NCBI GenBank assembly: GCA_021841585.1
Contig: JAKBUS010000012.1
Location: 1-47,351, forward strand
From: Pseudomonadota bacterium
GTDB taxonomy: Bacteria > Pseudomonadota > Gammaproteobacteria > Acidiferrobacterales > Acidiferrobacteraceae
Reading direction: 5' to 3'
Length of the DNA: 47,351 nt
Below, one piece after another: positions 8,158 through 47,252 of the stretch. Under the pieces are notes generated by a model that was not told the origin of the DNA, made no database searches, and saw only the letters and a list, made by a program, of their open reading frames with translations. A program made the translations under genes and the position numbers. The stretch's first letter is position 1; the number at the start of each line of letters is the position of its first letter.

Positions 8158-8240
8158 GGGCCCGAGGCTAGCATGGCAAGTAACCGCCGGGTAGCCCCGC
8201 CCGCCCCGCCCTCCTATAGTGAAGACAATTGGGGGGCGCC

Positions 8241-8897
8241 ATGATCGACTGGAGTTTGGTAGAGACCACGCTTTTGGACATGGATGGCACCTTGCTCGAC
8301 CTGCACTTCGATAATCACTTCTGGCAGGAGCATGTGCCCTTGCGCTATGCCGAGCAAAATGGTCTCGCGCTCGATGAAGCCAAGAGCCGGTTATATCAGC
8401 GGTTCCGGCGTGCCGAGGGGACCCTGAACTGGTATAGCGTCGACTACTGGAGCGACGAGCTCGCGCTCGACATCGCGCAGCTCAAGGAAGAGGTCGCCCA
8501 TCGCATCGCCCTGCGCCCGTTCGTCGAGGAATTCCTGGATGCCATGCGCGCCGCCGGCAAGCGCCTAGTGCTTGTCACCAATGCCCACGGCAAGACCGTG
8601 ACCCTCAAGTTTCAACGCACCCGCATCGATCGCTACATGGACGCGGTGTTCTGCGCGCACGATCTGGGTCTTGCCAAGGAGCACCCGCCCTTTTGGGGTG
8701 CGTTGCGGGCCCTTGAGCCCTTCGAGCCGGCGCGCACCCTGCTCATAGATGACAGCCTGCCTGTGTTGCGCTGCGCGCGCGACTACGGTATTGCCCATCT
8801 GCTCGCGATCCGCAAGCCCGATCTGCGCGGGCCGGACAAGGATTGCGGCGAATTCATGGCGATCGAGTCGTTTCGCAACCTGCTGCCGGTAGGCTAG
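8241..8897 (+). CDS. yrfG: HAD-family GMP/IMP nucleotidase, YrfG-like
   Basis: A 218-residue HAD hydrolase. The nucleophile motif TLLDMDGTLLDLHFDN (residues 10-25), NWYSVDYWS in the cap, LVTNAH (motif II), a motif III Lys in LAKEHPPFWGA and LLIDDS (motif IV) all match E. coli YrfG, a cytosolic purine 5'-nucleotidase of almost the same length. ATG 8241 is preferred over the TTG at 8229 because it matches the family start and has a G-rich site just upstream. A TATAGT (8215-8220) sits 20 bp upstream as a possible -10. The outer-membrane gene begins one base after its stop, which links a nucleotide enzyme to an efflux operon. Confidence 0.9.
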   Translation: MIDWSLVETTLLDMDGTLLDLHFDNHFWQEHVPLRYAEQNGLALDEAKSRLYQRFRRAEGTLNWYSVDYWSDELALDIAQLKEEVAHRIALRPFVEEFLDAMRAAGKRLVLVTNAHGKTVTLKFQRTRIDRYMDAVFCAHDLGLAKEHPPFWGALRALEPFEPARTLLIDDSLPVLRCARDYGIAHLLAIRKPDLRGPDKDCGEFMAIESFRNLLPVG

Positions 8898-35304: not shown

Positions 35305-36261
35305 TCAGGCCTTCTGTGAGCGGGGCGCGTCCGTCGCCTCGCTCACCGGGGTCACCCATTCGGGATGTGTCTTGCGCCGCCCGTGGACCTGCTCGAAATA
35401 GAGGGTCTGGAGCTTCTCGGTGATGGGTCCACGCCGCCCTTTGCCGATCGCGCGGAAGTCGAGCTCGCGGATCGGCGTGATCTCGGCCGCGGTCCCGGAG
35501 AAGAACGCCTCGTCGGCGATGTAGACCTCGTCACGGGTGATGCGCTTCTCGCGCACCGGCACCCCGATCTCGCCTGCAAGCTCCATGATGGTCTCGCGCG
35601 TGATACCCTCGAGCGCGGCGGTCAGGTCCGGCGTCAGCAGGACGCCGTTGCGCACGATAAAGATGTTCTCGCCGCTTCCCTCGGCCACATAGCCCTCGGT
35701 GTCGAGCAGCAGAGCCTCGTCGCAGCCGCATTGCTGGGCCTCGCGCAGGGCGAGCATGGAATTTATGTAGCTGCCGTTGGTCTTGGCCTTGCACAGGGTG
35801 ACGTTCACATGATGACGGTTGAATGAGGAGGTCTTGATGCGTATGCCGCGCTCCAGGGCCTCGTCGCCGAGGTAGGCGCCCCACGCCCAGGCGGCCACGA
35901 TCAGATGGACCTTGAGCTTGTCGGCCCTAAGCCCCATGCCCTCCGAACCGTAGAACGCCATGGGCCGGATGTACGCCGATTCGAGGCCGTTTTCGCGCAC
36001 CGACGCCAGGATCGCCTGGCGCACGGTCTCCTTGTCATAAGGGATGTCCATGCCCATGATGTGTGCCGAGCGGAACAGACGATCGACGTGGGCATCGAGC
36101 CTAAATACCGCCGCTCCCGTGCTCGTCGGGTAGGCACGCACACCCTCGAACACGCCCATGCCGTAATGCAAGGTATGGGTTAGCACATGGGTGTTGGCGT
36201 CTCGCCAGGGCACAAGCCTGCCGTCATACCAGATCACCCCGTCACGATCCGCCATGGACAT
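35305..36261 (-). CDS. ilvE: Branched-chain amino-acid aminotransferase
   Basis: A 318-residue class IV PLP aminotransferase. Lys160 (LCKAKTNGSYINS) is the PLP-binding residue by comparison with E. coli IlvE; HYGMGVFEGVRAY, AEGSGENIFIVRNG and FFSGTAAEITPIRELD are the other family motifs. It interconverts branched-chain 2-oxo acids and amino acids using glutamate. GAGGAGG lies nine bases before ATG 36261. It heads the zinc-finger/waaF unit and is divergent from the O-methyltransferase gene, with ~150 bp between. Confidence 0.95.
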   Translation of the reverse strand: MSMADRDGVIWYDGRLVPWRDANTHVLTHTLHYGMGVFEGVRAYPTSTGAAVFRLDAHVDRLFRSAHIMGMDIPYDKETVRQAILASVRENGLESAYIRPMAFYGSEGMGLRADKLKVHLIVAAWAWGAYLGDEALERGIRIKTSSFNRHHVNVTLCKAKTNGSYINSMLALREAQQCGCDEALLLDTEGYVAEGSGENIFIVRNGVLLTPDLTAALEGITRETIMELAGEIGVPVREKRITRDEVYIADEAFFSGTAAEITPIRELDFRAIGKGRRGPITEKLQTLYFEQVHGRRKTHPEWVTPVSEATDAPRSQKA

Positions 36262-36411
36262 ACCGTAAACCTCCTCGCCAAAGTTATTGCCTATTCGCGG
36301 CCTGGCTTTGCCGCCTAGACCGGCTCATACTGAACTGAAAGAAAGGGCTTCGCAACGGGGGCGAGAGGTCTCTCCACCCTGCCTTGCAAACGCGCTAGAT
36401 TGGTGGCCGCT

Positions 36412-37062
36412 ATGGAAAGGCTCATCGACAAAACGCTCGAGGACTATGCCCGCGCCCACATCACGGCCCTGCCGGAGGCGCTCGCCGAGATCGAGCACTA
36501 TACCCACACCCACCGCCCGGATGCGGCGATGTTGAGTGGGCCGGTCGAGGCCGCGCTTCTGCGGCTGCTCGTCATGCTCTGTCCGGCGCGCCGGGTCCTG
36601 GAAATCGGCCTTTTCACCGGCTATTCGGCGCTGGCCATGGCGAGCGCCCTGCCGGCCGATGGCGAGGTGCTCTCCTGCGAGAAGGATCCCGAGGCCATCG
36701 CCATCGCCCAACAATTCTTCGATCGTACCCCATGCGGCCGCAAGATCCGTATCCGCGCGGGCCTCGCGCTCGACACCCTCGAGGCCTTGCGCGGGCAGGT
36801 CTTCGATCTCATTTTTCTCGACGCCGACAAGGAAAGCTACCCGGTCTACTATGATCGCGCCCTGCCCTTGCTGCGGCCAGGTGGGCTGTTCGTCGCCGAC
36901 AATACCCTGTGGTCGGGCCGGGTGCTTGCGCCCAGTACCCCCGCCGATCTCGGCGTCGCCGCCTTCAACCGCAAGGTCCGGAACGACCCCGGCATGGACG
37001 CCGTGCTCCTTACGATACGCGACGGGGTGACCGTCGCGCGCAAGAAGACCGCCTGCGCCTAA
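36412..37062 (+). CDS. Class I SAM-dependent O-methyltransferase
   Basis: A 216-residue enzyme of the caffeoyl-CoA/catechol O-methyltransferase fold (methyltransf_3): [18 protein letters not shown] (SAM loop), [33 protein letters not shown] (metal-binding Asp) and [11 protein letters not shown] (second metal site) are all present. The acceptor is unknown; a phenolic hydroxyl is typical. ATG 36412 has GGTGG upstream. Its 3' end overlaps rho by 4 bp, tail to tail. Confidence 0.9.
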
Positions 37063-38321
37063 CGCCGCATGGAATCGAAGAATTCGGCGTTGTTCTTGGT
37101 GGCCTTGAGCTTGTCGAGCAGGAACTCAGACCCCTCGAGGTCGTCCATCGGGTGCAGGAGCTTGCGAAGGATCCAGAGCTTCTGGAGCTCGCCCGGATCA
37201 ATGAGCAGCTCCTCGCGCCGCGTCCCGGAGCGATTGATGTTGATCGCCGGGTAGACGCGCTTCTCGGCTAGACGCCGGTCGAGATGGATCTCCATGTTGC
37301 CCGTGCCCTTGAACTCCTCGTAGATGACGTCGTCCATTTTGGAACCGGTCTCGACAAGCGTGGTGGCAAGGATCGTCAGGCTGCCGCCCTCCTCGATGTT
37401 GCGCGCCGCCCCGAAAAAGCGCTTGGGGCGCTGCAGGGCGTTGGCGTCGACACCGCCCGTCAGCACCTTACCGGAGGCCGGCACGACGGTGTTATAGGCG
37501 CGCGCCAGGCGCGTGATCGAGTCGAGCAGGATGACCACGTCGCGCTTGTGTTCCACGAGGCGCTTGGCCTTTTCGATGACCATCTCCGCGACCTGGACAT
37601 GGCGGGTCGCCGGCTCGTCGAAGGTCGAGGAGATCACCTCCCCGCGCACCGACCGGGTCATTTCCGTCACCTCTTCCGGGCGCTCATCGATCAAAAGCAC
37701 GATCAGCACGCATTCCGGATGATTGGCGGTGATCGAATGCGCGATCTGCTGGAGCATCACGGTCTTGCCGCTCTTCGGGGACGAGACGATGAGCCCGCGC
37801 TGACCCTTGCCGATCGGCGATATGAGATCGATGACGCGCGAGGTAAGGTTTTCGGTCGATGAGTTCGCCTGTTCAAGCTTGAGGCGGTTCAGCGGGTGGA
37901 GCGGTGTCAGGTTTTCGAAGAGGACCTTGTTGCGCGCCTCCTCGGGCGGCTGGAAATTGATATTCTCGACCTTGAGGAGCGCGAAATAGCGCTCAGACTC
38001 CTTGGGCGGCCGGATGTTGCCCGTCACCGTATCGCCGGTCCGCAGATTGAAGCGGCGGATCTGGCTCGGGCTCACATAGATGTCATCGGGGCCGGCGAGA
38101 TAGGAGCTATCCGAGGAGCGCAGGAAGCCAAAGCCGTCCTGGAGGATCTCGACGACCCCCTCGCCCACGATATCCTCGCCCTTCTTGGCCTGGGCCTTCA
38201 GGATCGCGAATATGAGGTCTTGTTTGCGCAGGCGACTGCCACCCTCGAGATCGAGAGCCACCGCCATTTCCACCAACTCGGTGGCGGGTTTACGTTTCAG
38301 TTCGGAAAGGTGCATTGTCAT
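37059..38321 (-). CDS. rho: Transcription termination factor Rho
   Basis: A full-length 420-residue Rho: N-terminal helix bundle, RNA-binding region ([31 protein letters not shown]), Walker A SPKSGKT (residues 181-187), [16 protein letters not shown] with the Walker B Asp, and Q/R-loop sequence around [20 protein letters not shown]. It is a homohexameric RNA helicase that releases transcripts. Both ATG 38321 and ATG 38315 (closest to E. coli) are possible starts. It follows trxA on the same strand; a strong hairpin separates them. Confidence 0.98.
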
Positions 38322-38436
38322 CTTTTTGAGAAACCGTCAGGCGTGAAAGTGGCGGATGAATCCGCGACCTGATCAGAAAAGGGGTTGAAATAAAGGGAAA
38401 GCAGGGGAACCGCGCTTCCTGGCCCGGAACCTTAGC

Positions 38437-38477
38437 ACCTCGGCCGCCCGCCGTCCAGTACCGCGCGCGGCCGAGGT
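38437..38477 (-). terminator. Strong hairpin between trxA and rho
   Basis: ACCTCGGCCGC (38437-38447) and GCGGCCGAGGT (38467-38477) form a perfect 11-bp inverted repeat with a 19-base loop, 8 bp past the trxA stop. No T-run follows on the reverse strand, so this is either a weak or processing-type 3' end for trxA or part of the rho leader. Confidence 0.5.
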
Positions 38478-38484
38478 ATTCACG

Positions 38485-38811
38485 CTACAGATTGTCGTCC
38501 AAGAAGGCCGACAGTTGTGATTTGGACATGGCCCCCACCTTGGTGGCCTCCACCCCGCCGTTCTTGAAAAGCATCAGCGTCGGGATGCCGCGAATGCCGT
38601 ATTTTGGAGGGGTTGCGGGATTTTCGTCGATGTTGAGCTTGGCGACCGTGAGCCTGTCCTTGTAATCGCGAGCGACTTCCTCCAGAACCGGCGCGATCAT
38701 CTTGCACGGTCCGCACCATTCGGCCCAATAATCCACTAACACCGGGCCGGGCGCATTCAACACGGTCTCTTGAAAGGTGTCGTCCGTTACATAAATGATG
38801 CCTTGGCTCAT
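38485..38811 (-). CDS. trxA: Thioredoxin 1
   Basis: A 108-residue thioredoxin with the redox site [10 protein letters not shown] (Cys33, Cys36), the cis-Pro loop [11 protein letters not shown] and a normal C-terminal helix. It reduces protein disulfides in the cytosol. ATG 38811 fits the family length; the longer frame is upstream sequence. It is divergent from rhlB, and the order rhlB-trxA-rho is conserved in gammaproteobacteria. Confidence 0.97.
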
Positions 38812-38959
38812 GGTCTGGGTCTCGGTTGGTCGAATGGTTTTTGGGATCTCGGTTGAGAGGAATACGTCGCAGTAGGGGTATTGTGGACGGAACGGACGGG
38901 GCTTGGCAAGACCGCCCGTGGTTTCCCCGGCCCCCACCATTTGCTATGCTAGGTCGCTA

Positions 38960-40393
38960 ATGACAGATACTCACCTCACCCAACAAGCGTTTTCCGGCCT
39001 CGGGTTGCCGGAACCACTCCTCGCCGGAGTCATAAGCGCTGGTTTCACCCATTGTACGCCCATCCAGGCCGCCACCTTGCCCAAGGCGCTCGCCGGCCAT
39101 GATGTGGCAGGACAGGCCCAGACCGGGACGGGTAAGACCGCGGCCTTCCTTCTCGCGGTATTCAATCGTCTCCTGACGGTGCGACCGCCCGCCGATCGGC
39201 GGCCGAACCAGCCGCGCGCCTTGATCCTCGCGCCCACGCGCGAGCTTGCCATCCAGATCCACAAGGATGCCATGGTGCTGGGTCAAGGGTGCGCCCAGAG
39301 CGTCCAGCTTGCCTATGGCGGGACCGGGTACGAGAGCCAGCGCAAGGCCATCGAAGAGGGCGTCGATATCCTCATCGGCACGCCGGGGCGTCTCATAGAC
39401 TATTTCAAGCAACACGTCTTCGATCTGCAAGCACTTGAGGTGATGGTCCTGGACGAGGCCGACCGCATGTTCGATCTCGGCTTTATCAAGGACATCCGCT
39501 ACCTGTTGCACCGCATGCCCCCGGTCGACAAGCGCCTGAGCCTGTTGTTCTCGGCGACGCTGTCCTATCGCGTCATGGAGCTCGCCTACGAGCACATGAA
39601 TAATCCGGAACTCGTGCGTATCGAGGCGGAAAAGATGACCGCCGAGCGCGTGCGCGAGCGGCTCTATCATGTGGGGCAGGAGGAAAAGCTTCCGGTATTG
39701 GTCGGGCTTTTGCGTAGCGAGCAGGTGTCGCGGGCGCTCGTGTTCACGAACACCAAGCATGCCGCCGAGCGCGTGCAGGGGTGGCTTTCTGCCAATGAGT
39801 TCGGGGCGGCGGTGCTGTCTGGGGATGTCCCGCAGCAAAGGCGCCAGAGCCTGCTCGCGGAATTCCAGGGCGGGCAGTTCCCGGTCCTGGTGGCCACCGA
39901 TGTGGCGGCGCGCGGTCTGCACATACCGGATGTAAGCCACGTCTTCAATTATGACCTCCCGCAGGACGCCGAGGATTACGTGCACCGCATAGGGCGCACC
40001 GCGCGCGCCGGGGCCGCCGGCGAGGCGGTGAGTCTGGCGTGCGACGAGTACGCCTTTTCGCTCATGGATATCGAGGCCTATATCGGCCACAAGATCCCGG
40101 TGGAGCGTGTTACGGACGACCTGATCGTTCCCCTGAAACGCCCGGCGTACAAGCCTCCGCGCGAGCGCGTCGGCCATCATCCGCGACCGCGTGGCGCGTC
40201 CGCCCCGCGCGCTCGTGGCCCCCGCCATTTATCCGGGCGGCCACGGGAGGAGGCGCGAGGTCCGCGCCCGCCCGCGCCCACGCAAGCGGCGCCCCCGGCG
40301 CCTAAGCCGGCGCCTCGGCCCGCCGCCGCCCGTCCCGCAGAGCCGGTGTTGCCGCGCGGCCGCAAGGCCCCCGAGAAGCCGGTCCTCGGTTAG
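38960..40393 (+). CDS. rhlB: DEAD-box RNA helicase RhlB-like
   Basis: A 477-residue helicase. It has the Q motif (TPIQAATL), Walker A AQTGTGKT (residues 53-60), [49 protein letters not shown] and [10 protein letters not shown] in order. RhlB is the RNA degradosome helicase; position next to trxA/rho supports the name. The last ~75 residues are a Pro/Arg/Ala-rich, probably disordered tail that may bind RNA or a partner. Fifteen bases separate it from mtnD, so it may begin the methionine-salvage transcript. Confidence 0.94.
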
Positions 40394-40408: not shown

Positions 40409-40948
40409 ATGGCAGAGCTTCGCTTGCAGGATGGATCGCGGGTCACAAAGCCCGAGCGTATTGCCGCGCATCTGGCGCCGCTCGGCGTGACGTTGCGCCA
40501 CTGGCCGTTGCCTGCTGGCGCGCGCGCCGACGAGCTGTTGAGCGCGCAGCTACTCACCGACCCGGAAAAGGATGAACTTCTGGGCCTGGTCGAGCACCGC
40601 TTCGAGGCCTTGCGGGCCGAATCGGGCTACCAGGCCCGTGACCTCATCGTTTTGCACGAGGAACTGGCGGGCTTGGGCTTGGCGCTCGCCAAGTTCTCTG
40701 CCGTCCATTACCACGACGACGACGAGGTCCGTTATGTCCTGGCCGGCGCGGGATATTTCGGGTTCATCACGCAAAGCGGCGCGCAGATGCTCCTGAAGGT
40801 GGAGGCCGGGGATTACATCAACGTCCCGGCCCGCGCCGAGCATTGGTTCGTGATGGGTGATGCCCCGCGCATCAAGGCGGTGCGCTACTTCACCGACAAG
40901 GCGGGCTGGGTGCCGGTCTATACGCATACGCCCGTCACGCTGGCGTGA
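40409..40948 (+). CDS. mtnD: Acireductone dioxygenase
   Basis: A 179-residue cupin with the metal ligands His100, His102, Glu106 (VHYHDDDEVRYVL) and His145 (AEHWFVMGD), matching the Klebsiella His/His/Glu/His set. With Fe2+ it converts the acireductone to the 2-oxo acid precursor of methionine plus formate; with Ni2+ it makes an off-pathway product and CO. It is the first of three chained genes: its stop overlaps the RuBisCO-like gene as GTGA. Confidence 0.96.
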   Translation: MAELRLQDGSRVTKPERIAAHLAPLGVTLRHWPLPAGARADELLSAQLLTDPEKDELLGLVEHRFEALRAESGYQARDLIVLHEELAGLGLALAKFSAVHYHDDDEVRYVLAGAGYFGFITQSGAQMLLKVEAGDYINVPARAEHWFVMGDAPRIKAVRYFTDKAGWVPVYTHTPVTLA

Positions 40949-42072
40949 CCCCCCCCGCTTCGCCCGATTCCCAGGTCATAGCGACCTATCGTTTCCCCCC
41001 CGGGATCGATGCCGCGCGCCAGGCCGAGATCATCGCCATAGGCCAGACCCTGGGCAGCGCCGACGCGCGCTTCGACGGTCGTGAACAGGCCCTCGCCGCC
41101 TGTCGCGGCGAGGTGCTCGAGGTGCGCGCCACGGGCGACGGGGCGCTGGCCCTTGTGACGTTTCCCACCGCGAACACCGAACGCGATATCGGCACGCTGC
41201 TGACCATGGTATTCGGCAAGTACAGCCTAGCCGGCCCCGCGCGACTCGTGGACCTGCGCCTGCCCGCGGATTTCGGGACCCGCCCGCGCTTTGGCATTGC
41301 GGGCCTGCGCGCGCGACTGGGCGTCATTGACCGCCCACTGCTCATGGCGATCTTCAAACCCGCCTTGGGCTTGACCGCGGCCGATCACGCGACCCTCCTG
41401 CGCTCGGTCGCCGATACGGAACTCGATCTCATCAAGGATGACGAGATCCTCGGCAACCTCGCGCGCGCGCCGACCCTGGAACGCTTCCGCGCCTGTCGTC
41501 CGGTGATCGAGGCGATCCGCGATCGCCGCGGACGCGACTTCCTGTATGCGGTCAATGTTACCGGACGCGCCGACACCCTGCTTGCCAGCGCCCGCGCGCT
41601 TATTGCCGAGGGCGCCAACGCCTTGTTGCTGAATGTCCTGGTCTATGGCTATCCGATGCTTGAGGCCCTGGCCGCCGACCCCGCGATCGGCGTGCCCATC
41701 ATCGCTCATCCGGCGCTCGCCGGTGCCCTGGCGCTGGCCCCCGATCACGGTATTGATTACGGCCTGGTCTTGGGGCGTCTCATGCGCCGCGCCGGGGCCG
41801 ATATCGTGCTCCATCCGGCGCGTTTCGGGTCGCTGCCGTTTCTGGCCGCGGACGAGGCGCGGGTGATCGCAGCACTCACGGATCGCGACGGCGCCTGGCC
41901 CGCGGTGTTTCCTGGCCCGTCGGCTGGCATCAAGCCCGCGATCGTGCCGGCGCTTCTCGCCGACTATGGGCCCGATCTCGTCATCAATGCCGGATCCGCG
42001 ATCTTTGACGCCGCCGGCGGACCCAAGGCCGCGGTCGAGTCGTTTCGCGCGGCCATGGAGACGGGCGCGTGA
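40945..42072 (+). CDS. mtnW: RuBisCO-like protein, probable MtnW (diketo-MTP-1-P enolase)
   Basis: A 375-residue form IV RuBisCO-like protein. Its catalytic domain has IFKPALGLT (Lys138), LIKDDEIL (Lys164 for carbamylation, Asp166 and Glu167 for Mg) and IIAHPALAG (His255). The phosphate-binding segments differ: PGPSAGIKPAIVPAL (Ser326) replaces the usual SAGIHPG, and NAGSAIF (Gly350-Ser351) replaces GGG. It is shorter than typical MtnW (~400). Between mtnD and mtnB, with GTGA overlaps on both sides, the enolase step of methionine salvage is the best inference. The N-terminal domain is intact. True carboxylase activity is unlikely. Confidence 0.87.
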   Translation: MTPPASPDSQVIATYRFPPGIDAARQAEIIAIGQTLGSADARFDGREQALAACRGEVLEVRATGDGALALVTFPTANTERDIGTLLTMVFGKYSLAGPARLVDLRLPADFGTRPRFGIAGLRARLGVIDRPLLMAIFKPALGLTAADHATLLRSVADTELDLIKDDEILGNLARAPTLERFRACRPVIEAIRDRRGRDFLYAVNVTGRADTLLASARALIAEGANALLLNVLVYGYPMLEALAADPAIGVPIIAHPALAGALALAPDHGIDYGLVLGRLMRRAGADIVLHPARFGSLPFLAADEARVIAALTDRDGAWPAVFPGPSAGIKPAIVPALLADYGPDLVINAGSAIFDAAGGPKAAVESFRAAMETGA

Positions 42073-42674
42073 GCGAGAGCGCCGATCCGAGACCCCGGCT
42101 CGCCGCCATAGGGCGGCTATTCTATGAACGTGGCTGGATGTGGGCGACAGCCGGCAACCTGAGCGCGCGTGCAGACGACCAGTCGTTCTGGATCACGGCA
42201 AGCGGTCTATCCAAGGGCGAGCTCGTGATCGATGATTTTCTGCGCATCGCGATCAGCAGCGGTGAGGTACTCGAGGGCGGTGCGGGCCGCAAGCCCTCCG
42301 CCGAGACCGCCATCCACCGCGCGATCTACGAGACCCAGCCGGCCACTCAAGCATGCCTGCATGGGCACTCCGTCGAGGCCGTGCTCGCAAGCCGCGGGCG
42401 TGACCCCGTGGTCCTTCCGCACGTGGAGATGATCAAGGCCCTGGGGGTATGGAGCGACAGGACGCCCATCGCCCTGCCGGTGTTTGCCAATCACTCGGAT
42501 GTGGCGCTTATAGGGCAGGCCGTAAAGAACTTTCTAAGCGGCCACCCGCGCCCGGTGCCGGCGCTCATCGTGCGCGACCATGGTGTCACCGCCTGGGGTC
42601 AAACGCTCTCAGAGGCGCTTCGGCACTTCGAGGCCGTGGAGTTCCTTCTCGCCCTGCTCGCGCGCGGATTCTAG
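42069..42674 (+). CDS. mtnB: Methylthioribulose-1-phosphate dehydratase
   Basis: A 201-residue class II aldolase-fold zinc enzyme. Zinc ligands are His98 and His100 (CLHGHSVEAVLAS) and His171 (IVRDHGVTAWG); SAETAIHRAIYE carries the conserved acidic residue Glu79. It dehydrates 5-methylthioribulose-1-phosphate to the diketo phosphate that the RuBisCO-like enzyme would take. It is third in the unit and starts in a GTGA overlap. No phosphatase gene (mtnX/mtnC) follows. Confidence 0.94.
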   Translation: MSESADPRPRLAAIGRLFYERGWMWATAGNLSARADDQSFWITASGLSKGELVIDDFLRIAISSGEVLEGGAGRKPSAETAIHRAIYETQPATQACLHGHSVEAVLASRGRDPVVLPHVEMIKALGVWSDRTPIALPVFANHSDVALIGQAVKNFLSGHPRPVPALIVRDHGVTAWGQTLSEALRHFEAVEFLLALLARGF

Positions 42675-42943: not shown

Positions 42944-43726
42944 ATGTGTCTCCTGCCGCTATTCGTGCACACCGCGGTTTGCCAGCTGAAGCTGGCGATA
43001 TCCGCGATCCAGAAAAAATTCCGTAACGGCCCCAGGCCGCCGGCGGTGCTGCTTTGCGTCGCGAACCCACTCGCCTTGTCTTGCGTGCACGCCATCACCA
43101 ACGCGGGTTGGACATGCCATCGCGTGCCCCGGCTACGCTACGTCGACCGTGCCGCGCGCGCGCTCGACGCAGCCGTCGTGGTCACGGATCGCATCGCCTC
43201 GGTGGCCGCCAGAGTCCGGAACGAAACGTCCGATCTCCTGCCCTTCGTGCTTCTGGGTCCGCCCCGGCGGCAGGCCGATGCGCTTGCGGCCGGGGCCACG
43301 CTCTTTGTCCCCGTGCCGCTCGATGGGCCGGTGCTGATCCAGGGCCTAGCCCGGATCATCAACAGTCCCGCCCCGCAAGGGCCGCGGATCGTTGCTGACG
43401 CCAATGGCCTGTGGCTCGATCCGCTGACCACGCAGGTCCGCGTGCGCGATACGCCACTTGCCCTGTCGCCGCGCCATTTCAGTGTGCTGCTCGAACTCGT
43501 CCGTAGCCCCGGCCGGCTGCTTACCACCGAGCGATTGTGCTCCGGCATCGGCAATATCCGCCCCATGACACCCGCCGCGCTCGCCGTCTGTGTCTCGCGC
43601 CTGCGCAAGCTTTTGCGCGATGCCGGTGCCCCGGACTGTATCGAGACCGTCCACTGTCTCGGTTATCGCTACATCCTATTGGAGCTGCCGCTGGCGCCGG
43701 CGGCCGCCATGGCGCGTCACGGATAG
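42944..43726 (+). CDS. OmpR-type winged-helix regulator with degenerate receiver
   Basis: A 260-residue protein. Residues ~35-140 resemble a receiver domain in strand order (VLLCVANPLALSC, AAVVVTDRIASVA, FVLLGPPRRQADAL, GATLFVPVPL), but the acidic pair is missing, the expected phospho-Asp strand ends in Thr-Asp rather than the standard pattern, and the conserved Lys near the end is replaced. Residues ~160-245 form a trans_reg_C winged helix (LSPRHFSVLLELVRSPGR, VCVSRLRKLLRD, IETVHCLGYRYIL). A phosphorylation-independent DNA-binding regulator is inferred. No sensor kinase is nearby; it precedes the TonB receptor by 37 bp. Confidence 0.75.
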   Translation: MCLLPLFVHTAVCQLKLAISAIQKKFRNGPRPPAVLLCVANPLALSCVHAITNAGWTCHRVPRLRYVDRAARALDAAVVVTDRIASVAARVRNETSDLLPFVLLGPPRRQADALAAGATLFVPVPLDGPVLIQGLARIINSPAPQGPRIVADANGLWLDPLTTQVRVRDTPLALSPRHFSVLLELVRSPGRLLTTERLCSGIGNIRPMTPAALAVCVSRLRKLLRDAGAPDCIETVHCLGYRYILLELPLAPAAAMARHG

Positions 43727-43763
43727 ATTCACTTACTTGCCTTTAACCTCAGGAGGAGTACTC

Positions 43764-46220
43764 ATGTTGGCACGTTACCCCCGATTACGCGCGACCCGCG
43801 CTACCTGCCCCCCGTTGCGGTTGCTCGCGGCCTCGCTATTGTGCGCCACCGCCACCGCCCGTGCCGCAACCGTCGGTGGTGGCAGTGCCACCGCCGCCAC
43901 GGGTTCGTCCTACGTCAATGTCGGTCACGTGTCCGCAAACTCGCAGGCCCTCAATACCCTCGAGGGGACGCCCACCAAGAAGCAGGTCTTCAAGTCGACC
44001 CAATCGGTCAAGGTCATCGGCAAGAGGCAGATGAGCCTTGCTGGACCGGCCAATGGTGGCGCCCAGGCCCTGTCGGTCGCCCCCGGCGTCAATGTCGAAA
44101 CGGAGGGCGTGAGCGGCGCCCCGCGCTCGAGCATCGGCATCAACGGCATGAAGACCGGTTGGGGCAACATCGCCGGTAACGCCAATGACGGTACGGTCAT
44201 GGTGACTTTCGACGGTGTCCCCATGATCGATCCCGCCTATGGGGTCTGGCAGGCCTCCGAGGTCCCGCAGCTTTCATTGGTCAGCGCGATGTCCGTGACC
44301 TACGGTCCGGGCTATGCGGTCAACCGCTGGTACAACAACATCGGCGGGGCCGTCAATTTCGCGCCGCTCGAACCGGCGAAACGGGCCAGCGCCACCCTCG
44401 GGACGTTCGCCGGCAGTTTCAGCACCTATGGCGGATTCTTCAATGTTCAGACGGGCAAGATGGGTGATGGTTGGTCGGGGGTCGTCGCCGGTGGCGTGAC
44501 GCGTGCCGACGGCAACTATCTGCATGGCTACGGATTCAACAATCCCTCGAAAAATCACGCCTACTACGCCAAGTTTCGTAAGACCTTCCATGGCGGGCAC
44601 GTGAGTTTCGGCGCCTATGACGCGCGCGCCGAATCCTACCGGCCGCTGCCGATCCCCGTGTCCCCCAACGCCAACGTCACGGTCAACGGCGTCAACCCCA
44701 ATACCGGCGCGGTCAATCCCGGACCCCTCTATAGCCAGCAGACCACCGGGTTCTACACCACCCTGCCCTATTCCGAGTACTGGAAGCAGAGCGTGGTCAG
44801 CACCGAGCTCCTGTATTCGCGCTTCGTCGACCGCATCGCAAGCCACGTCACGATGCACAACCTGATGTGGTACCGCTATGGGCACCGCCAGCACCTGCAC
44901 TACGACAACTACGGCAACAACAACAACGTCCTGAATCAGTATTACTACACGACCAGCGACACATTCGGCGACAAGCTCTACTTCAACATCCGCGCGCCGT
45001 ATAACGACGTGTCCGTGGGCGGCTATTACCTGAACAGCAAGTACGCCTCGCTGCTTGAGTTCTATAATGCCTCGCTGCCCGCCCAGTATGCGTACGGGCC
45101 GAATGCCGGCAGCAATGCCACGGTCAATGGCCAGCCCGTCAACTACAGCCTGTCGCTCCCGAGTCACTATCACGACTCTTACCTGTACATGACCGACCTC
45201 GCGGCCTTCATCCAGGATGACATCCAGCCGCTGCAGTCGTTGCGCATAACGCCCGGCATCCGCGTCGTGAGCTTCCAGACCAATTTCGTCAACAACGCCT
45301 CATCCATGTTCCCGATCAACGTCGCAGACCAGATCGGCACGAACGGCGACGGCACCGGCGGCAACAACGCCCCGAACTCGTCAACGACCTTCAGCGAGCT
45401 CGAGCCGTCCATAGGGGTGAACTGGCAGGCCACGAAGACCTTGGCGCTATACGCCAACTACTCCACCGCCTACAAGGCCCCGGCGGGAGCCACGGGCACC
45501 TATGCCCATCTGCTGGCAAGCTCCCTTGCCCCGCAAAAATCCACGCAGTATCAGGTGGGCTTGAAGGGCTATATCCGACATGATGGGCTGCTGAACAACG
45601 CCGCCTTCGGTGCCAATTACTACGACCTGAACGACACTAACGAGATCATACCGATCCCGGTGGTAAGTCACCTCTACAGCCTATTCGCATCGGGATCGTC
45701 GCGTTTCAACGGCGTCAACATCTACGCCGAAGACAACCCGATCTACACGCTCCATGTGTTCGCCAACCTGAGCTTCGAGCGCGCCACCTACTCTCAGTAC
45801 ACGACGCCAAGCGGCGGTTCCTACAACGGCCTGCCGGTCTCCAACGTGCCGGCGCAGACCGCCAACGTCGGGATGTTCTACGAGATGTACAATCACGGCG
45901 TCGTGTATACGCCAAGTATCTGGTGGCAATACACGGGTCCCCAGGACATCTACAACAACAACATCAACGCGCCCACCCGGCAGAAGCTGCCGGCGTTCGG
46001 TATATGGAACGCGTCATTGAAGGTGGCCGTGGGGCGCAGCGATCTCGGTGCCCATGTGCATCGCGTGGACGTCGATTTCGGGGTCTACAATCTCTTGAAC
46101 AAGCAGTACAACGCCTACGAGTACGTCAGCAGTGGCGGCTACTATGGCGTGGCAGGCCAGCTCCTTGGGGAGCCGGGTGCCCCGCGCTCGTTCGAGGTCT
46201 CGCTCAGCACCAAGTTCTAA
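43764..46220 (+). CDS. TonB-dependent outer-membrane receptor
   Basis: An 818-residue precursor. The signal peptide ends near ATARA. A plug domain has SVKVIGKRQ, INGMKTGWGN, VTFDGVPMIDPA and VTYGPGYA, then a 22-strand-type barrel rich in Tyr, Asn and Gly (for example RQHLHYDNYGNNNN, LYANYSTAYKAPAGATG), ending VSLSTKF with the C-terminal Phe used in barrel assembly. It should import a metal chelate or cobalamin-like ligand with TonB; no ligand clue is visible. AGGAGGAG precedes ATG 43764. The winged-helix gene just upstream is the likely local regulator. Confidence 0.92.
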   Translation: MLARYPRLRATRATCPPLRLLAASLLCATATARAATVGGGSATAATGSSYVNVGHVSANSQALNTLEGTPTKKQVFKSTQSVKVIGKRQMSLAGPANGGAQALSVAPGVNVETEGVSGAPRSSIGINGMKTGWGNIAGNANDGTVMVTFDGVPMIDPAYGVWQASEVPQLSLVSAMSVTYGPGYAVNRWYNNIGGAVNFAPLEPAKRASATLGTFAGSFSTYGGFFNVQTGKMGDGWSGVVAGGVTRADGNYLHGYGFNNPSKNHAYYAKFRKTFHGGHVSFGAYDARAESYRPLPIPVSPNANVTVNGVNPNTGAVNPGPLYSQQTTGFYTTLPYSEYWKQSVVSTELLYSRFVDRIASHVTMHNLMWYRYGHRQHLHYDNYGNNNNVLNQYYYTTSDTFGDKLYFNIRAPYNDVSVGGYYLNSKYASLLEFYNASLPAQYAYGPNAGSNATVNGQPVNYSLSLPSHYHDSYLYMTDLAAFIQDDIQPLQSLRITPGIRVVSFQTNFVNNASSMFPINVADQIGTNGDGTGGNNAPNSSTTFSELEPSIGVNWQATKTLALYANYSTAYKAPAGATGTYAHLLASSLAPQKSTQYQVGLKGYIRHDGLLNNAAFGANYYDLNDTNEIIPIPVVSHLYSLFASGSSRFNGVNIYAEDNPIYTLHVFANLSFERATYSQYTTPSGGSYNGLPVSNVPAQTANVGMFYEMYNHGVVYTPSIWWQYTGPQDIYNNNINAPTRQKLPAFGIWNASLKVAVGRSDLGAHVHRVDVDFGVYNLLNKQYNAYEYVSSGGYYGVAGQLLGEPGAPRSFEVSLSTKF

Positions 46221-46365: not shown

Positions 46366-46791
46366 CTATGATGTTGGCACCCCGAGCTCACCACCCCATT
46401 GCTGGAGCAGCGCAAGGGTCCCTTCGGCCACGGCGATCGCCTCTTGCGCGTCTTTGGCGTCATAGGCCTCGGCGATGTCGGTGCCCTCCGGCAGCGCATC
46501 GGGATAGCGCGTGGCGATGTAGAGCTTGTCGAGTCGCGCCGCCAATACGAGCCGCGGGTGCCTCTCCGGGTCTTCGGGGAGTTCTCGCAAGAGTTGGGCG
46601 ATCGAGTGGGTCTTGGGGAGCCTGCCGGTGGCCACCAAGAGGCCCTTGAAGGCCTTCTCGGCGGCTTGCTGGGCATGGAAACACGCCGGCGCGTAGCGCT
46701 TGAGCCCGAGGAGCGCGCGGGCGGTATCAAGATCACCACGCGCCGTGTTGAACCAGCGCATAGCCTGCGCGAGATCAGCGTCCACGCTCAT
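46366..46791 (-). CDS. HEPN-domain protein (toxin of MNT-HEPN pair)
   Basis: A 141-residue helical protein: AMRWFNTARGDLDTARALL, YAPACFHAQQAAEKAFKGLL, PKTHSIAQLL and ATRYPDALPEGT are the conserved blocks of HEPN proteins paired with minimal nucleotidyltransferases. Family toxins are RNases or nucleotide-binding helices; the R-x4-6-H motif is not obvious here. ATG 46791 lies inside the 3' end of the nucleotidyltransferase gene, a 17-bp overlap. Confidence 0.85.
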   Translation of the reverse strand: MSVDADLAQAMRWFNTARGDLDTARALLGLKRYAPACFHAQQAAEKAFKGLLVATGRLPKTHSIAQLLRELPEDPERHPRLVLAARLDKLYIATRYPDALPEGTDIAEAYDAKDAQEAIAVAEGTLALLQQWGGELGVPTS

Positions 46792-47197
46792 AAAGCAGCT
46801 CCCGCTCTCCCCAGAGGGTCCGGAAAAACGGCCCGCCTGCCCGGTGCTTCGCGGCGAGCTCCGCGGTGGTCCAGGGGATGACGTCACAGCCAAACGCCAA
46901 GGGCGCGTCGGCGACCACGTCGTAGGCCGCCGCCACGCGCTCCTTGAACGGCAAGCCGGCGGCGTTCTCCCCGACTTCCACGAGCACGTCGAGGTCGGAA
47001 TCCTTCGATGGCACGCCTCGCGCCACCGACCCGAACAGCCAGATCCGCCGGGCGTCCAGACGTCGCACGAGCGGAGGGACGAGCACGCGCAACGCCATTT
47101 CGCGCATGGACGCGGCCCGCTTTTGGGCCTCTGCGCGGATGTCGGCGGCCGGGTGACGCCCTTCCGGTGCCGATCGTTTGCCGGTCGTCATGTCCAT
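46775..47197 (-). CDS. Minimal nucleotidyltransferase (antitoxin of MNT-HEPN pair)
   Basis: A 140-residue protein with IWLFGSVARGVPSKDSDLDV (GS motif and DxD metal pair; a later Asp in GCDVIPW may be the third carboxylate). MNT antitoxins of this group can AMP-modify the HEPN partner. ATG 47197 has GAGGCGAGG just upstream; ATG ~47107 is an alternative. It is first in the operon, driven by the promoter/palindrome at 47212-47252. Confidence 0.88.
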   Translation of the reverse strand: MDMTTGKRSAPEGRHPAADIRAEAQKRAASMREMALRVLVPPLVRRLDARRIWLFGSVARGVPSKDSDLDVLVEVGENAAGLPFKERVAAAYDVVADAPLAFGCDVIPWTTAELAAKHRAGGPFFRTLWGERELLYERGR

Positions 47198-47211
47198 GGC
47201 CTCGCCTCTCA

Positions 47212-47252
47212 GCGTATGCCGCAGCATACGCGCGCAATGATGCCCGTGACAA
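47212..47252 (-). promoter_or_regulatory. Promoter and overlapping palindrome of the MNT-HEPN pair
   Basis: On the reverse strand there is a -35 TTGTCA (47247-47252), an 18-bp spacer and a -10 TATGCT (47223-47228). GCGTATGC-CGCA-GCATACGC (47212-47231), a palindrome with perfect 8-bp arms, covers the -10 and lies 14 bp before the ATG. This arrangement suits autorepression by the toxin-antitoxin complex. Confidence 0.6.

Follow-up and report, generated by a model that had tools for sequence, protein, structure and literature searches.

A RuBisCO-like protein between mtnD and mtnB appears to serve methionine salvage in an Acidiferrobacter-like bacterium lacking detectable mtnC and mtnX

A gene for a RuBisCO-like protein (RLP) lies between mtnD and mtnB, two genes of methionine salvage, in an Acidiferrobacter-like bacterium. 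Which reaction does the RLP catalyse? Which enzyme then removes the phosphate from the product? In known pathways the HAD-family enzyme MtnC performs both enolisation and dephosphorylation; MtnW yields the enol phosphate only, which MtnX then dephosphorylates (PMC6302742). We consider these questions using the window, by which we mean the whole 47,351-nucleotide stretch of DNA analysed (contig C8), and the genome to which it belongs (G000, 2.57 Mb, 99.7% complete). Among the relatives of the RLP that share 78-91% identity with it are some from MAGs named Acidiferrobacter or Acidiferrobacteraceae. The features of the locus are as follows.

35305-40393, strand not assigned: upstream neighbours, namely an ilvE-like aminotransferase, an O-methyltransferase, rho, thioredoxin and a DEAD-box helicase (tblastn synteny)
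40409-40948, plus strand: mtnD, acireductone dioxygenase, 179 aa (PF03079, 71.6 bits)
40945-40948, plus strand: GTGA overlap of the mtnD stop and the RLP start, read from the sequence and kept among genus relatives
40945-42072, plus strand: RLP, predicted MtnW-type enolase, 375 aa (profile, PDB and fold-model matches)
41212-41235, plus strand: FGKYSLAG, Lys at the general-base position (K98 of GkMtnW), by alignment
41425-41448, plus strand: DLIKDDEI, positions of the carbamylated Lys and the Asp/Glu Mg ligands, by alignment
41917-41940, plus strand: PSAGIKPA (PSAGIHPG in Bacillus MtnW), by alignment
41986-42009, plus strand: NAGSAIFD (NAGGGIHG in Bacillus MtnW), at the phosphate-binding loop position, by alignment
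42069-42072, plus strand: GTGA overlap of the RLP stop and the mtnB start, read from the sequence
42069-42674, plus strand: mtnB, methylthioribulose-1-phosphate dehydratase, 201 aa (TIGR03328, 182.5 bits, cut-off 137)

The order mtnD, RLP, mtnB and both GTGA overlaps had been set out in a first-pass annotation of this DNA, and the coordinates given there prove exact. The metal motif HxHx4E...H is visible in the MtnD sequence, orthologues of which share 70-92% identity within the genus, and MtnB also matches PF00596. Most relatives have an ATGA or GTGA overlap at the joint between RLP and mtnB; a few show a short gap there. Values of dN/dS are 0.11-0.13 for the RLP, 0.16 for mtnD and 0.21-0.27 for mtnB, making the RLP the most constrained of the three. 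Downstream, the window carries an OmpR-type winged-helix regulator at 42944-43726 (PF00486, 49 bits; a weak VpsR-domain match and no clear receiver-domain match), followed by a TonB-dependent-receptor-like frame at 43590-46220. Adjacent HEPN-domain-like and MNT-type nucleotidyltransferase-like frames on the minus strand at 46366-47227 are likely to represent a toxin-antitoxin pair.

The RLP is a member of the RuBisCO large-chain family (PF00016, 86.6 bits) and its best NCBIfam matches are MtnW models, NF007095 with 315.7 bits and TIGR03332 with 267.2 bits. These scores fall below the curated equivalog cut-offs of 409 and 513.6 bits, respectively, so the protein is classed as working like MtnW and not as that equivalog. 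The best PDB sequence matches are 2ZVI, 4NAS and 2OEK, the MtnW structures of Bacillus, Alicyclobacillus and Geobacillus, which also served as references for alignment of the active site. The FGK, IFK, KDDE, AHPA and PSAG motifs are all retained, with K92 (of FGK) and K164, D166 and E167 (of KDDE) invariant across 33 aligned sequences. In keeping with established knowledge of the family, we take the FGK lysine to be the base, KDDE the metal site and the GGG loop the phosphate-binding element. The first-pass annotation had described a catalytic lysine and Mg ligands that are kept, together with changes of NAGGGIHG to NAGSAIFD and of SAGIHP to SAGIKP, and the alignment confirms each of these.

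An AlphaFold model of the RLP, based on a 33-row alignment, has a pLDDT of 90.9 and a pTM of 0.91. The best structural match is 2OEM, the Geobacillus enolase (MtnW) with a substrate analogue (Z 45.8, 366 residues aligned, rmsd 2.3). The top matches are all MtnW structures, tied at Z 44.8-45.8, compared to 39.6 for 3QFW, an RLP of R. palustris. The latter, which is not the closest match, carries FGN and KDDH, as do most other gammaproteobacterial RLPs (27-37% identity), and neither motif occurs in the host RLP. The combination of FGK, KDDE and a predicted fold matching MtnW suggests that the RLP belongs with the enolase type.

The MtnW (YkrW) of Bacillus and Geobacillus is the closest of the structures by sequence and fold, and has in common with the RLP the predicted fold, the base lysine, the carbamate lysine, the Mg ligands and the mtnB/mtnD context. 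The differences are NAGSAIFD, SAGIKP, a shorter C-terminus and a genome without mtnX. Identity is approximately 38% and phylogeny, a check suggested with the first-pass annotation, places the RLP in a well-supported clade apart from these enzymes. Within that clade are cyanobacterial RLPs (Arthrospira, Oscillatoria, Microcoleaceae and Pleurocapsales; 53-58% identity), which likewise display FGKYS(L/M)AG, MAIFKP and a replaced second glycine of GGG, with SAGIKP in two of them. The cyanobacteria differ in having the loop NAGT(G/A)IMD and in possessing mtnX, linked or unlinked, in all four genomes tested. A Nitrospirae operon, mtnD-RLP-mtnX-mtnB, has the same order and its RLP falls in the same large clade, but identity is 45-47% and mtnX is inserted between RLP and mtnB.

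A point against an enolase is NAGSAIFD, an unusual loop for the phosphate-binding position. The first-pass annotation wrote of a divergent active site; that the altered motifs on their own signal a different reaction is not supported. In the wider clade, which comprises cyanobacteria, Nitrospirae, Myxococcales and other Gammaproteobacteria, the place of the second glycine is mostly taken by Thr, Ala or Ser, and a NAGTGIMD loop is present in cyanobacteria and Nitrospirae. The lysine of PSAGIKPA also occurs in L016 and L017, both with mtnX. The mtnX gene adjoins the RLP gene in these two loci, in the L018-L034 Nitrospirae set and in L185 and L188, and is found elsewhere in the genome in Arthrospira and Pleurocapsales. 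Retention of mtnX by relatives, whether linked or not, ties the RLP clade to the MtnW reaction and, since such relatives share the changes at the second glycine or the lysine, these changes are compatible with that reaction in its ordinary form. The lysine-for-histidine substitution and the Ser-Ala loop were thus discarded as proof of new chemistry, and the divergence of the active site seems mostly a trait of the clade.

The exact NAGSAIFD loop is restricted, in our sample, to Acidiferrobacter, G344 (a genome from another family) and G069, none of which has mtnX. An association of the loop with absence of mtnX is suggestive at best. It is weakened by G043 and L014, a Myxococcales MAG, which are without a clear mtnX yet display NAGGGIMD and NAGTGIMD, respectively. 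The tree sets Acidiferrobacter apart from G344 and G069, but this split is weakly supported and the AU test does not reject one clade of the NAGSAIFD lineages (p-AU 0.163). Several independent origins of the loop were set aside on this result, and the association rests on at most two events. Common inheritance is favoured by the rho-thioredoxin-helicase locus that G344 shares.

The genome search proposed with the first-pass annotation recovered mtnP and mtnA from the host; mtnC and mtnX were not detected. The annotation had named an mtnC elsewhere in the genome as evidence against an RLP enolase. No match to mtnC (TIGR01691) was obtained in the host genome, nor was the gene found in any of 17 family genomes other than G017, from the sister genus. 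The absence of mtnX, noted earlier for the operon, extends to the whole host genome and the genus, with no mtnX found in any of 18 family genomes (TIGR03333). Profiles of MtnX with 13 and 15 rows gave best E values of 0.01 and 0.09 in the host genome, inside a sensor-kinase frame, and a hidden mtnX was dismissed on this basis. Absence from one MAG may reflect an assembly gap, but the mtnX and mtnC pattern recurs in near-complete genomes; those with RLP and without mtnX are G000, G001 (a single contig), G013, G007, G344 and G069. The host genome also encodes two true RuBisCO large chains, with mtnP located approximately 6 kb from one of the genes, outside the window (contig C75:33676-41251).

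How the operon is inherited is informative. All 12 RLP-bearing genomes of the genus also have mtnB, in one case cut by the contig end, and G008 is without both genes. In G009 (L205:3778-4900) the RLP gene has been lost and only a decayed piece of mtnD follows the helicase gene, beside which mtnB remains open. This looks to be a methionine-salvage pathway in decay. The upstream synteny extends through the genus and to G017, where mtnD-mtnC-mtnB occupies the orthologous ilvE-OMT-rho-trx-helicase locus (L204:7640-9455) and no enolase-type RLP was found. Here Acidiferrobacter and G017 share 57% identity in MtnD and 48% in MtnB. The MtnC of G017, a HAD protein unrelated to the RuBisCO-fold RLP, holds the same position between mtnD and mtnB. 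In G344 the arrangement is rho-trx-helicase-mtnD-RLP-mtnB; searches of about 2.2 of 2.4 Mb revealed mtnA and an MtnP-like gene, and neither mtnC nor mtnX. The slot shared with mtnC is our strongest evidence that the RLP would replace MtnC for the enolase step. In G069 (L189:6126-7895) RLP and MtnB sequences occupy one open frame of 589 aa downstream of mtnD, an apparent fusion, with no mtnX match.

We consider it probable that the RLP is a diketo-MTP-1-phosphate enolase and that the phosphatase step falls to an unlinked enzyme other than MtnX, probably a promiscuous HAD. The operon would then encode the late part of aerobic methionine salvage. MTA would be cleaved by MtnP and the product isomerised by MtnA, with MtnB carrying out the dehydration to diketo-MTP-1-phosphate. 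The RLP would enolise this compound by MtnW-type chemistry, employing a lysine as general base, a carbamylated lysine and Mg. Following dephosphorylation, probably by a HAD of the phosphoglycolate-phosphatase kind, MtnD would oxidise the intermediate. The RLP thus placed in the slot of the bifunctional MtnC would be expected to supply the enolase half only. The first-pass annotation had predicted a methionine-salvage enolase, and the residues, the predicted fold, the operon and the mtnC slot support that assignment.

With respect to the phosphatase, we infer that a promiscuous enzyme is the most economical answer, since B. subtilis lacking mtnX continues slow growth on MTA and alkaline phosphatase can dephosphorylate the salvage intermediate (Nakano et al., PMC3698126). 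The multifunctional MtnBD of Tetrahymena is likewise without phosphatase activity (Nakano et al., PMC3698126). The HADs examined in the host are of the phosphoglycolate phosphatase, GMP/IMP nucleotidase and histidinol-phosphatase families, and none tracks the RLP uniquely across the host and family genomes. G008 and G009, which have no RLP, also lack the YrfG-like HAD found at 8229-8897 in the window. That HAD, however, scores 211.2 bits as a GMP/IMP nucleotidase equivalog, above the cut-off of 189, and G014, G016 and G017 carry it although they have no RLP, so it was rejected as the missing enzyme. Nearly every family genome, with or without RLP, carries the HADs located near mtnA (contig C66), one of which scores as a phosphoglycolate phosphatase, and the HAD on contig C122 is a histidinol-phosphatase; these were also rejected.

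Could a dedicated phosphatase, not homologous to MtnX and encoded elsewhere, have been recruited in the lineages without mtnX? The recurrence of that absence in six near-complete genomes that have RLP would fit, as would the ease with which unlinked mtnX is detected in Arthrospira and Pleurocapsales. We regard this as rather unlikely given that no dedicated phosphatase for the step was found in the host genome, no candidate gene tracks the RLP, and the HADs that are present are housekeeping types. It is very unlikely that the RLP is itself bifunctional, enolising and releasing phosphate so as to replace MtnC fully, with NAGSAIFD as part of the change. The RLP does stand alone in the slot of a bifunctional enzyme, two families have the same locus without mtnX and mtnC, and NAGSAIFD is confined in our sample to lineages without mtnX. 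The loops of G043 and L014, the one or two origins of NAGSAIFD and the sufficiency of generic phosphatases in B. subtilis (PMC3698126) all argue against it. That in the three NAGSAIFD lineages the RLP has assumed the whole role of MtnC, enolising the substrate and also removing the phosphate, is similarly improbable. If true, the RuBisCO superfamily would gain an activity of a new kind; we know of no phosphatase activity in that superfamily.

A different reaction altogether is also to be weighed. Rhodospirillum-type RLP isomerises MTRu-1-P, and the protein described here likewise occurs in a methionine-salvage context. Other RLP-based MTA pathways are described for R. rubrum and R. palustris (PMC4958253, PMC5893883), which lends the idea some substance. 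Nevertheless, mtnB and mtnD flank the RLP gene, the slot is that of mtnC, FGK and KDDE replace the FGN and KDDH of the R. palustris protein, and phmmer gives 105.6 bits to 3QFW against 239.2 to 2ZVI. Such a reaction is already disfavoured and we judge it extremely unlikely. The enolase acting with an unlinked phosphatase is the reading that we carry forward.

Enolase RLPs are known, and a Microcystis genome paper names the cyanobacterial rbcLIV the enolase mtnW (PMC2442094). The RLPs of Leptospirillum and A. ferrooxidans appear in bioleaching papers without a role as methionine-salvage enolase. Within the literature searched, we found no paper linking Acidiferrobacter with methionine salvage, and the variant with an RLP in the MtnC slot and no MtnX seems to be undescribed.

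The locus presents a natural exchange, with a HAD-family MtnC in one genus and an RLP in its sister, amid the same neighbouring genes. As MtnC performs two steps and an MtnW-type RLP one, the exchange exposes the missing phosphatase. It also provides a setting without mtnX for asking if any RLP goes beyond enolisation. The usual MtnW models, applied at their curated cut-offs, overlook this large RLP clade, one member of which this acid-loving bacterium appears to use in recycling methionine.
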